Shown here piece by piece: positions 157 to 7,074 of a stretch of 55,115 nucleotides of DNA (positions are counted from its first letter, which is position 1; the number at the start of each line of letters is the position of its first letter). The position numbers and the translations under genes are program-made. Location of the stretch: assembly GCA_009778695.1 (NCBI GenBank), contig WRFS01000010.1, positions 1-55,115 on the forward strand, written 5' to 3'. This stretch comes from Oscillospiraceae bacterium (GTDB taxonomy: Bacteria; Bacillota; Clostridia; TANB77; CAG-508). The notes below the pieces were generated by a model. The model was not told the origin of the DNA and made no database searches. It worked only from the letters and a program-made list of their open reading frames with translations.

Positions 157-444
157 TCCTCAATAGCTCAGTTGGTAGAGCATGCGGCTGTAAAATGTTA
201 GCAGCTTCATAAGGAAACTTATGAATGACAAAGGTGGCTAAGTCGGTGAAACTCTTGTAAAAGACAATACCGAGCAAGGCGAAAGCTATGTGTAGAGACT
301 TTACACCACCTACCTAAATTCTTATATGAATATGGTAAAGATAAAGTCCAGACTACAAATTATGATTTAATTCATAATGTTAATGTAAATTAATGTAGTG
401 CAGTAACCGCAGGGTCGTTGGTTCGAGTCCAACTTGAGGAGCCA
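157..444 (+). tRNA. tRNA-Asn(GUU) interrupted by a group I intron
   Basis: Exon 1 is 157-191 and exon 2 is 404-444, including an encoded CCA. Joined, they give a 76-nt class I tRNA with a perfect 7-bp acceptor stem (TCCTCAA/TTGAGGA), D arm, and T arm GTTGG/CCAAC. The joined anticodon stem is TGCGG/CCGCA with loop CTGTTAA, so the anticodon is GUU (Asn). The intron enters between anticodon bases 35 and 36. The gene sits 7 nt after the 5S gene, at the end of an rRNA operon. A tRNA-Tyr reading was rejected because its loop would be one base short and the long variable arm of bacterial tRNA-Tyr is missing. Confidence 0.93.
192..403 (+). ncRNA. group I self-splicing intron in the tRNA-Asn anticodon
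   Basis: This is a 212-nt intron with no open reading frame. The upstream exon ends in U and the intron ends in G, as group I splicing requires. Internal guide GCAGCT (201-206) pairs with exon GGCTGT (186-191) to form P1, with a U-G wobble at the splice site. The P7 strands are visible as GACTTT (297-302) and AAAGTC (343-348), inside the typical contexts GTGTAGAGACT and AAAGTCCAGACTAC. The small size and tRNA anticodon-loop position resemble other bacterial tRNA group I introns. The full P3-P8 fold was not computed. Confidence 0.9.
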
Positions 445-3634: not shown

Positions 3635-3765
3635 ATGAGTTGCAGATATTTAATAAATGAAAAATTTTTGTAGAAAAAAGTATGGCAAAATTTATACTTT
3701 TAATATATAATAAGATTGTTGTTAAAAGTAATAAATTCAGCTTGAAATAATGGGAGGTAGTGCAA

Positions 3766-4857
3766 ATGACAATAAAAGAAAAACTACAAACTGAAAAAGA
3801 TAACAAAAGAGAAGTCTATACTCAATGTCCTGCTGTAAGAAAAAAATATGATGTTATTTCTTTATTTTCAGGGTGTGGTGGATTAGATTTAGGTATAGAA
3901 GGAGATTTCCATTATTTAGGGAAAAAATATATAAAGAATCCGTTTAATGTTGTTTGGGCTAATGATATAAATAAAAAAGCAACAGAAACTTATAAATTGA
4001 ATTTTCCAAATACAAATGTTGTATGTGGAGATATTACGGAAATTTTAAACATCAATAATAATAAACAAACTAATTTTTTTGACAATGAAATTAATCTTCC
4101 AAATGCAGACATTATTATTGGTGGATTTCCGTGTCAAGATTTTAGTTTGGCAGGTAAACGAAAAGGATTGACTGTACAAAGAGGAAATTTATATCAAAGT
4201 ATGGTAAAAGCAGTAGAAATAATAACCCCTAAAATTTTTATTGCAGAAAATGTAAAGGGTTTGATTTCTTGGGAAAACGGATTAGCTATTAAAACTATAA
4301 CTGAAGATTTTGCCAAACTTGGTTATAAAGTTGATTATAAATTATTTAATGCAGCTGACTTCGGTGTCCCTCAAAATAGAGAAAGAGTTATAATTCTTGG
4401 CATTAGAAACGATGTATATGTGGATTTTGAATGGGCTAAACCAACACATACAACAGATTCATGGGTTACAATTAAACAAGCAATAGATGATTTAGTTACT
4501 GAAGATAAACATAATTCTATGCCAAATTGTGGCTATTCAAAAGCAAAATTATTTCCTGGAAAACAAGGTAATATAAAAACTAGTGCTGATAAGCCTGCTC
4601 CTACTATGAGAGCAGAACATCACGGTAATATAGAATTCCATTATTCTTTACCAAGAAGGCTATCTGCTCGTGAAGCCGCTAGGATACAGACTTTTCCAGA
4701 TGATTTTGTTTTTGTTAGTTCTACAACAGATGCATATAGGCAAGTAGGAAATGCTGTTGCACCAGTATTTGCTTGGCATATAGCACAAATGCTAAGGAAT
4801 ATTTTAATAAACATAGAAGCAATGGAGGAGACAAAATATGAATGGAAGTGTATATAA
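3766..4857 (+). CDS. DNA (cytosine-5-)-methyltransferase (type II)
   Basis: A C5 methylase of 363 residues with the usual motif order: motif I DVISLFSGCGGLDLG (S-adenosylmethionine pocket), motif IV GGFPCQDFS with the catalytic Cys, motif VI IAENVKGL, motif VIII QNRERVIILGI, and motif X RQVGNAVAP near the end. The target-recognition stretch between VIII and IX is short, as in four-base specificities. ATG 3766 has GGGAGG eight bases upstream. Its last 20 bases overlap the restriction gene, so the two are translated together and the methylase is made first. It protects the host's own sites against the neighbouring nuclease. Confidence 0.95.
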   Translation: MTIKEKLQTEKDNKREVYTQCPAVRKKYDVISLFSGCGGLDLGIEGDFHYLGKKYIKNPFNVVWANDINKKATETYKLNFPNTNVVCGDITEILNINNNKQTNFFDNEINLPNADIIIGGFPCQDFSLAGKRKGLTVQRGNLYQSMVKAVEIITPKIFIAENVKGLISWENGLAIKTITEDFAKLGYKVDYKLFNAADFGVPQNRERVIILGIRNDVYVDFEWAKPTHTTDSWVTIKQAIDDLVTEDKHNSMPNCGYSKAKLFPGKQGNIKTSADKPAPTMRAEHHGNIEFHYSLPRRLSAREAARIQTFPDDFVFVSSTTDAYRQVGNAVAPVFAWHIAQMLRNILINIEAMEETKYEWKCI

Positions 4858-5485
4858 CAAACTCTTTGATGATAATTTAATAATAAAAAGAGTGAAAAAC
4901 AAATTGCCTCATTTATTTCAGTTAGCAGAATTAGAAAGTTCGAGGAATGGTAAAATAGGTATGGAGATTGGTTCTGTTAGAGAACGTATATTAATTGCAC
5001 TTTTAATGTATAAATTTGGAATAGATATAGTTGACCCTGATATACCTATTACTGCTCCAGAGGTTGATGTGTATGTGAAAGACACACCATTATCAATTAA
5101 AACATTGACAACAATCAATAATAAATGGCAACCAATAAAATTGATATGGACAGTTGACCCTCATAAGACTCTTGAATTTAAAAATACATATACACCTTCT
5201 TGTGATATGATGATTGCTAAAATTTGTTGGAATGGCACAGGGAAGTTATTATTATTTTCAAAAGAAAGTCAGCATAAAATTTTGCGAAAGATAGGTAGAG
5301 AAAATTATATTAAAATGCCAAAAGCAGGAACCAATGCAAGAGGTGTTGAAATTTCAGCAGAAGCTTTATCCATTCTTGAGAAAGCAAAAGATACCCGTTG
5401 TATAGATATTGATTTTATTAGAAAAGAAATTGATTATAGAGAAGTATATACAAAGTGGCTTGATGCTTGGACGGAGGATTATTAG
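4838..5485 (+). CDS. type II restriction endonuclease, ThaI-like
   Basis: A 215-residue protein encoded in overlap with the C5 methylase, the standard layout of a type II system. A nuclease-like core is visible as PEVDV followed after a short loop by LSIK, a divergent PD-(D/E)xK arrangement. Downstream motifs PSCDMMIAKICW and GRENYIKMPKAGTNARGVEIS are reminiscent of the ThaI family, which cuts CGCG; that assignment is from memory of the family and not from a search. If correct, the cognate methylase modifies CGCG. The codon usage matches the surroundings. The gene is intact, with no truncation visible. Confidence 0.75.
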   Translation: MNGSVYNKLFDDNLIIKRVKNKLPHLFQLAELESSRNGKIGMEIGSVRERILIALLMYKFGIDIVDPDIPITAPEVDVYVKDTPLSIKTLTTINNKWQPIKLIWTVDPHKTLEFKNTYTPSCDMMIAKICWNGTGKLLLFSKESQHKILRKIGRENYIKMPKAGTNARGVEISAEALSILEKAKDTRCIDIDFIRKEIDYREVYTKWLDAWTEDY

Positions 5486-5544
5486 ACATAGTAGGCGTAG
5501 TAAAATAATACAAGAAAATAAAAGAAAGGAAATTGTGGGGAGTA

Positions 5545-7074
5545 ATGACAGAACAAGTTAAAACGCAATTAGAATACATGGATAAAATAAGCAAAATAAA
5601 CAAAGGCAAAAATCTAAAATATCATATTATAACTATGGGATGTCAGTTAAATGAAAATGATTCTGAAAAAATAGCGGGAATGCTTATGAAAATGCAATAT
5701 GCCGAAACAATAGATTCCCATGATGCAAATATATTAATTTTCAACACATGTTGTGTAAGAGAAAACTCAGAAGAAAAATTATTTGGCAAAATAGGAGAAA
5801 CAAAAAAACTTCGCAAAGAAAAAGGCACTATTGTGGCAATATGTGGTTGCATGATGCAAGAAAAACACATTACAGAAAAAATCAAAAAAAGTTATCCATT
5901 TATTGATATAATCTTTGGAACGCATACATTATATAAGTTTGCCGAAGACTTATATAATTTGTTGCAAAATAAGAAAAAAATAGTGGATGTTATCGATATA
6001 GATGGTGAAATTTACGAAGGACTTCCAATAAAGCGAAATGATAATAAAAAAGCAAATGTCATAATAATGTATGGGTGTAATAACTTTTGTTCTTATTGTA
6101 TTGTACCGTATGTAAGGGGTAGGGAAAGAAGTAGAAGTCCACAGGACATATTAAACGAGGTTAGGGAGTTGGCAAAAGAAGGCTATAAAGAAATTACTTT
6201 GCTGGGGCAAAACGTGAATTCGTATGCAGGGAAATGTAGGGGCGAACTGTGTTCGCCCGAGATGCCACTGCGAGAGGTGTTTCTTCCTCAGGCGAACGCA
6301 GTTCGCCCCTACACGGACAACACCTCTCTCCGTTTACGCTACTCTGAATACGGAAATGCACTTGACCAAACTTGGGACTTTGCAATCCTACTAAAAGAAG
6401 TAGCAAAAATTGATGGCATAGAAACCATTCGTTTTTTATCTCCACATCCAAAAGATTTTACAGATGAAGTAATAGAGGCTATTTCTGAAAATAAAAAGGT
6501 AAGTAGATGGATTCATTTGCCTTTACAATCTGGAAGTACTAATGTGCTTAAATTGATGAATAGAAAATATACGAAAGAACAGTATTTAAACTTAGTTGAA
6601 AAAATTAAAAACAAAATTCCAGATGTAGTGCTTTCAACAGATATAATTGTAGGATTTCCAGGAGAAACAGAAGAAGACTTTGAAGACACGCTAGAAGTTG
6701 TAAAAAAAGTTGGATTTGAGCAAGTATATATGTTTATATATTCTAAAAGAATTGGAACACCAGCAGCAGAGGCTCAAGACCAAATTTCAGAAGATATAAA
6801 ACATAAAAGATTTGATAGATTAAAAAAGCTAGTAGATGCAGAGGTTCAAAAGAATAATCAAAAATACATAGGCAAAACAGAAAAAATACTGGTAGAAGGA
6901 TTTAGTAAAAACAATGAAAATATGTTGACTGGAAGAAACAGTGCAAATAAGATAATTGTGTTTGAAGGCAATTCTGATTTAATAGGAAAAACTGTAGAAA
7001 TAAAGATAACTTCGGAACATCAATGGTATTTAAGAGGGAAAGTAGAAAATAATATCGAACGCACAAGCAAATAA
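5545..7074 (+). CDS. miaB: tRNA-2-methylthio-N6-dimethylallyladenosine synthase
   Basis: A radical-SAM methylthiotransferase that adds the methylthio group to i6A37 of tRNAs reading UNN codons. N-terminal cluster cysteines appear in TMGCQLNENDSE, NTCCVRENSE and CGCMM; the radical-SAM triad is in YGCNNFCSYCIVPYVRGRERS; the C-terminal TRAM region ends the protein. ATG 5545 is used; TTG 5533 is an alternative. Between GQNVNSYAG and DFAILLKEV, where the family has only a few residues, there is an in-frame insert of about 48 residues. It is encoded by palindromic DNA (6235-6328). The insert lies after the SAM core's third strand, so the enzyme may tolerate it. Confidence 0.95.
   Translation: MTEQVKTQLEYMDKISKINKGKNLKYHIITMGCQLNENDSEKIAGMLMKMQYAETIDSHDANILIFNTCCVRENSEEKLFGKIGETKKLRKEKGTIVAICGCMMQEKHITEKIKKSYPFIDIIFGTHTLYKFAEDLYNLLQNKKKIVDVIDIDGEIYEGLPIKRNDNKKANVIIMYGCNNFCSYCIVPYVRGRERSRSPQDILNEVRELAKEGYKEITLLGQNVNSYAGKCRGELCSPEMPLREVFLPQANAVRPYTDNTSLRLRYSEYGNALDQTWDFAILLKEVAKIDGIETIRFLSPHPKDFTDEVIEAISENKKVSRWIHLPLQSGSTNVLKLMNRKYTKEQYLNLVEKIKNKIPDVVLSTDIIVGFPGETEEDFEDTLEVVKKVGFEQVYMFIYSKRIGTPAAEAQDQISEDIKHKRFDRLKKLVDAEVQKNNQKYIGKTEKILVEGFSKNNENMLTGRNSANKIIVFEGNSDLIGKTVEIKITSEHQWYLRGKVENNIERTSK
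6235..6328. repeat. TGTAGGGG-type palindromic insert inside miaB
   Basis: Arms TGTAGGGGCGAAC (from 6235) and GTTCGCCCCTACA (301-313 of the block, ending 6313) are complementary. Each arm is also a small hairpin (GGGCGAAC/GTTCGCCC; GGCGAAC/GTTCGCC). A second pair, GAGAGGTGTT (6272-6281) and AACACCTCTC (6319-6328), interleaves with the first. The frame stays open through the repeat. Confidence 0.85.

Follow-up and report, generated by a model that had tools for sequence, protein, structure and literature searches.

The organisation of the DNA analysed here (the window, 55,115 nt in full) raises the question of whether a tRNA-Asn gene placed at the end of an rRNA operon and interrupted within its anticodon is the host of a group I intron, and of whether the decoding of asparagine in its carriers depends on the removal of that intron. 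The group I introns known from bacterial tRNA genes lie in the anticodon loop and have a P1 helix with a terminal U.G pair, GNRA-capped P2 and P9 helices and no P5abc. The intron of the window is also a small ribozyme in the anticodon loop with these same properties; unlike them, it is hosted by tRNA-Asn(GUU), splits the gene between positions 35 and 36 and lies at an rRNA operon end. The carriers of Asn introns, uncultured gut Clostridia and phages, likewise differ from the hosts of the known bacterial tRNA introns.

All features of the locus are on the plus strand. The contig starts at the end of an rRNA operon, with a 5S rRNA gene at 33-149 (RF00001, 92.7 bits), followed after a spacer of 7 nt by the tRNA-Asn(GUU) gene at 157-444, with its CCA encoded. 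No tRNA was reported at 157-444 by ARAGORN without introns; with introns allowed, the program returned tRNA-Asn(gtt) i(36,212) at these positions. Exon 1, from the acceptor 5' strand to U35, covers 157-191, its last base being the U at the 5' splice site; the intron covers 192-403 (212 nt, last base G403) and exon 2, from U36 to the encoded CCA, 404-444. Once joined, the exons (76 nt) are scored by ARAGORN as tRNA-Asn with a complete cloverleaf and the anticodon GUU. The length of 212 nt, the exact coordinates and the split between G34-U35 and U36 given in a preliminary description of this DNA were thus borne out, as was its claim that the intron holds no ORF, none being found in 192-403. A pattern scan also located a candidate terminator-like hairpin with a U-run 3' of the tRNA (505-536). 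Elsewhere in the window, the ORF at 801-1823 is RhuM-like by eye; adjacent ORFs at 3760-5485 resemble, again by eye, a DNA cytosine methyltransferase and perhaps a restriction endonuclease acting as its partner; and a miaB-like ORF (5533-7074) contains an in-frame stretch, GELCSPEMPLREVFLPQANAVRPYTDNTSLRLRYSEYGNALD (6226-6375), which looks like an insert and has no second copy in the genome.

As regards the nature of the intron, the Rfam group I model RF00028 matches 182-371 with 51.3 bits when a short stretch is searched (gathering 50, E 2.3e-12), and the match is also above the cut-off in a whole-genome search. With default filters on 3 kb, Rfam reported the 5S gene only and not the intron, and most of the Clostridia Asn introns scanned with RF00028 score below the cut-off or fail the filters. 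Folding of the tRNA-Asn gene gives z = -3.6 against shuffles. The preliminary description had noticed P1 and P7, both of which were recovered together with P2-P6, P8, P9 and P10. P1 pairs exon GCUGU (187-191) with guide GCAGC (201-205), with the terminal U.G at the splice site; all 57 bacterial Asn introns retain both the pairing and the G at the splice-site guide position. The P10 strand GUUA (197-200) faces UAAC of exon 2 (404-407), with 99% of alignment cells paired in the bacterial Asn introns. Read as a reverse complement, the whole guide, GUUAGCAGC, matches the ligated exons (GCUGU joined to UAAC) at every base but one, the G of the U.G wobble at the splice site. P2 (206-213/218-225) is a hairpin of eight pairs, six of them with two-sided changes, and its GAAA cap is found in 57/57 distinct Clostridia Asn introns. 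In the core, P3 (232-237/306-311), P4 (243-247/269-273) and P6 (274-276/289-291) are paired in 97-99% of cells across all hosts, P5 (253-256/261-264) in 98% of the bacterial Asn introns and 58% across all hosts, and P6a (278-280/285-287) in 100% and 88%, respectively. P7 (297-303/342-348) is pseudoknotted with P3, and P8 (312-314/334-336) carries an inner helix (318-321/328-331). The 3' domain (352-399) comprises P9 (352-357/394-399), P9a (359-365/372-378) and P9b (380-384/389-393), the last with the GNRA loop GUAA, L9b being GNRA in all 57 distinct Clostridia Asn introns.

Over the complete 70-pair structure, standard pairs occupy 98% of cells in these 57 introns, compared with 30-42% in controls in which the 3' partners were slid by 1-3 columns, and two-sided changes were found at 24 of the 70 pairs, versus 1-8 in the slid controls; both totals include three misplaced P8 columns, the correct columns being paired in 171/171 cells. 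The percentage paired is biased in favour of this structure, which was derived from the window sequence itself; stronger evidence comes from the two-sided changes. Such changes are absent from P1, P4 and P9 and limited to one pair in P7, which hardly varies and so adds little covariation; these four helices therefore rest on conservation. Moreover, the locus parser imposed a U before the intron and a G at its end, so that the presence of both in relatives is no independent test. A pseudoknotted P3-P7 core with P4-P6 and P8 is thus present with covariation support, and the compact fold, with no P5abc, a short P5 and GNRA loops in L2 and L9, resembles that of subgroup IC3. Sequence and fold place the window intron among the group I introns and make it IC3-like, similar to those of other bacterial tRNAs; the earlier interpretation of a group I intron in tRNA-Asn between positions 35 and 36 is supported by RF00028, by the fold and by the joined exons.

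The reading that we consider very probable is that an ORF-less group I ribozyme splices tRNA-Asn(GUU) at U35/U36, having been gained once in the tRNA-Asn of these Clostridia and inherited mainly vertically with losses, and being akin to tRNA-Lys and tRNA-Asn introns of phages. It draws on the anatomy of the locus, the covariation, the exact empty sites, the lack of a second tRNA-Asn in the assemblies and the clade structure. As for the reaction in the window RNA, we infer that in the precursor the guide GUUAGCAGC would first hold the 5' exon through P1, which has its conserved U.G at the splice site, and next the 3' exon through P10. Cleavage after U35 would be due to an external guanosine bound in P7; the 3'-OH of U35 set free by this step would then attack after G403, the last intron base, so that the anticodon GUU would be joined and the intron of 212 nt released. 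The intron is probably self-splicing. GNRA loops in L2 and L9 are typical of robust bacterial tRNA introns, such as those of Azoarcus and Anabaena, and this scaffold argues against a need for a helper protein, whether synthetase- or helicase-like, in vivo, which we regard as unlikely. Such a need would be in keeping with the A+U-rich composition of the window copy, with its minimal P1 and P5 helices and with the requirement of some group I introns for protein factors (PMC3984707).

The second part of the question concerns whether the interrupted gene is the only source of tRNA-Asn. The host, a gut bacterium, is represented by a draft MAG of 80 contigs totalling 1.88 Mb, with a completeness of 93%, a contamination of 7% and 31 RF00005 tRNAs. 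No tRNA-Asn was found among the 30 with ARAGORN-read anticodons, and the 31st (contig 11, 8782-8856) looks by eye like tRNA-Leu(GAG); tRNA-Tyr(GUA) and tRNA-Thr(UGU) of this genome are uninterrupted. Counting the tRNA-Asn genes thus left the interrupted one as the only one found in the draft. When genomes were searched with a pattern for the tRNA-Asn arm without interruption, 18 intron-bearing ones (the host and 17 others), some of which are 97-100% complete and in as few as about nine contigs, gave no match, and five of six genomes without this intron gave a perfect one. The absence of tRNA-Asn in one draft means little alone, because the control genome G003, which is without the intron, gave no tRNA-Asn match either. 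Moreover, the exact join of the two exons is found in members of genera g9 and g2 that have no intron, and the joined anticodon arm of the window tRNA-Asn is present uninterrupted in sister species.

Most scanned carriers have the gene in a 5S-tRNA-Asn context, with the 23S too in one case. Since rRNA operons may be under-assembled, a second tRNA-Asn copy is possible in the host, and the interrupted gene could be a dead copy whose task is carried out by an intact tRNA-Asn of a different rRNA operon that escaped assembly. The start of the contig within such an operon and the two 5S copies of some relatives speak for this explanation, but no parsed relative has damaged exons or splice-site pairings, and none of the 18 independent assemblies contains an intact copy, which makes it very improbable. 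Even more remote is an assembly chimera or a chance resemblance, as might be suspected of a single draft MAG: the same gene structure recurs in dozens of MAGs that were assembled independently by several projects, it shows covariation, and these independent occurrences already refute the idea. Returning to the spliced gene, the statement of the preliminary description that all Asn decoding depends on splicing if this is the only gene stands in so far as no other tRNA-Asn was found in a 93%-complete assembly; the dependence itself is likely rather than certain, because contig 10 starts inside an rRNA operon and such operons assemble badly. On the gene content of these assemblies, carriers probably must splice the intron RNA to read any asparagine codon, and splicing would then be essential.

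The intron is one of a larger set in the relatives of the host. A search with RF00028 over 95 of them revealed introns in tRNA-Asn, tRNA-Tyr, tRNA-Thr and tRNA-Leu, plus others outside tRNAs. When the core model R1 was run on the host's family, probably GTDB CAG-508 within TANB77, 143 of 390 genomes gave a match, and in a sample of 287 genomes of the order 101 did so; as an R1 match alone leaves the host tRNA untold, the loci were fetched and parsed. Host tRNAs were assigned by full cloverleaf pairing, which replaced ARAGORN's own intron boundaries, by which many relatives had been misassigned to Phe, Asp, Ile or Leu. The fetched loci, including a few fetched twice, comprised 63 in Thr(UGU), 66 in Tyr(GUA), about 34 in Asn(GUU) and one each in Lys(CUU) and Leu(UAA). 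The insertion follows an anticodon U, which the parser required without fixing the position beforehand: between positions 34 and 35 in Leu, 35 and 36 in Asn, Tyr and Lys, and 36 and 37 in Thr. The Tyr, Thr and Lys introns of the family share the core of the Asn introns, and often the same genomes, six members of family f1 (G037, G193, G215, G233, G311 and G413) carrying Asn, Thr and Tyr introns together. Guides vary with the host tRNA, which fits the expectation that an intron's guide should match the exons flanking it. The predominant forms are GTTA-GCAGC for Asn introns and (A)CTT, (A)TTT or (A)ATT-GCAGC for Tyr introns; TT-GCACC is the most frequent one for Thr introns. Apart from the tRNA loci, two group I introns (L034 in G079:C105 and L035 in G074:C20) apparently lie in phage-type protein genes, which are tape-measure-like by eye.

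A pattern scan of 84,980 species, which is not an unbiased census because the pattern was built from Clostridia introns, gave at least 56 Asn introns. Their records are titled uncultured Clostridia, Clostridium, Eubacteriales, Clostridiales or Lachnospiraceae, and many are animal-gut MAGs; the scan overlaps with the family survey (contig 44 of G037 has the same length as JAFQIK010000045, from goat caecum). By the same means, tRNA-Lys(CUU) introns were found in Acidobacteria, Methylococcales, an Alphaproteobacterium and a Christensenella. The parsed Clostridia Asn introns measure 212-251 nt and therefore have no room for an ORF the size of LAGLIDADG_2 or PDDEXK_5.

Phages carry similar introns. 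With the same pattern, 49 stretches were found in IMG/VR, of which about 32, on predicted phage contigs, parse as tRNA-Asn(GUU) with an intron between positions 35 and 36, and about nine as tRNA-Lys; L291-L293 are bacterial loci. Several lie in tRNA arrays on contigs of 150-230 kb. One phage Asn intron (L315) has 844 nt and encodes a LAGLIDADG_2 protein, while PD-(D/E)XK (PDDEXK_5) proteins occur in tRNA-Lys introns of bacteria as well as of phages; such homing-endonuclease-like proteins were noted in the tRNA-Asn or tRNA-Lys introns L315, L253, L245, L221, L248 and L324, and endonuclease genes in related introns offer a route for the homing of these relatives. BLAST of the window intron against named phages gave no tRNA-Asn intron; the group I-like matches lay in or beside protein genes (crAss-like helicase, pelagiphage capsid), in the tRNA-Leu of a huge phage and in a tRNA of a Lak phage. 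According to a 2014 review, the phage introns then known were all in protein genes, despite the existence of phage tRNA genes (PMC3984707). The two phage tRNA loci deserve mention. In a 735-kb uncultured phage (L357, LR756501.1 189626-191149) a group I intron interrupts a tRNA-Leu(UAA), and a tRNA of Prevotella phage Lak-B1 (L358, MK250020.1 411498-413009) has a group I intron-like insert after U35. The joined loop of the latter would be CTCTAAA, with anticodon CUA (amber suppressor); if this reading is true, Lak phages would rely on the splicing of an intron for recoding their stop codon.

The history of these elements was approached with a maximum-likelihood tree, which has long branches and a bootstrap that had not settled. 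The Clostridia Asn introns form one clade (98/99 support), and the Tyr and the Thr introns each form their own, with their own guide. Three phage tRNA-Lys introns, the phage tRNA-Asn intron L300 and a Christensenella tRNA-Lys intron group with the Clostridia Asn clade (99/98). Outside its clade, the window intron is nearest to phage introns L300 and L305 (72% identity), its identity with the Tyr and Thr introns of its own family being 62-64%. The phage Asn introns use the same insertion site and are scattered over several places in the tree: some group with the Clostridia Asn clade, whereas others are separate lineages. Homing endonuclease genes are present in a few relatives. A single origin of all tRNA-Asn introns in one clade was rejected (AU p 0.0002), and those of phages apparently derive from separate insertions at the same site. 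The Clostridia Asn introns follow genus for the most part: genus labels change 10 times on the Asn tree, the minimum for 10 genera being nine. The best reading of these sequence comparisons would be one gain of the Clostridia Asn introns followed by mainly vertical inheritance with losses, and an exchange at some point, in either direction, with phage tRNA-Lys/Asn introns. It is plausible that phages were the source of the Clostridia intron. More tentatively, and as a possibility that we hold to be rather less than probable, phages may act as reservoir and carriers, the Lys/Asn introns of their tRNA arrays having repeatedly invaded the site after U35 and seeded the single tRNA-Asn gene, and probably the tRNA-Tyr and tRNA-Thr genes, of Clostridia.

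As to precedents, tRNA-fMet and tRNA-Ile2 have been named as intron hosts (PMC8450103), group I introns in tRNAs have been found to hinder their detection in circularised genomes, mostly of CPR (PMC8172020), and a passage of PMC12641178 cites a 2025 preprint by Nakagawa et al. on tRNA introns of Patescibacteria. The introns claimed in Arg, Gly and Lys tRNAs of cyanobacteria (PMC5733544) were rejected as a precedent, since 22-49 nt are too short for group I introns. No earlier report of a group I intron in tRNA-Asn, nor of this host lineage, was found in the open-access literature; the preliminary statement that tRNA-Asn is not an established host holds within open-access papers.

With these findings, tRNA-Asn, tRNA-Tyr, tRNA-Thr and tRNA-Lys join the tRNAs that harbour bacterial group I introns, and Bacillota and phages join the carriers, whereas reviews name only cyanobacteria and proteobacteria. 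The usual annotation misses interrupted genes, and these genomes therefore look as if they were without tRNA-Asn. Where the interrupted gene is the sole tRNA-Asn, the translation of every AAU or AAC codon would depend on an RNA enzyme, which provides a natural test bed for ribozyme fitness. Furthermore, since one anticodon site has been colonised repeatedly in phages and in hosts, the way in which ORF-less tRNA introns spread becomes testable; if the reading of phages as a reservoir is true, this colonisation would have put the decoding of whole amino acids under ribozyme splicing in a large clade of gut Clostridia.
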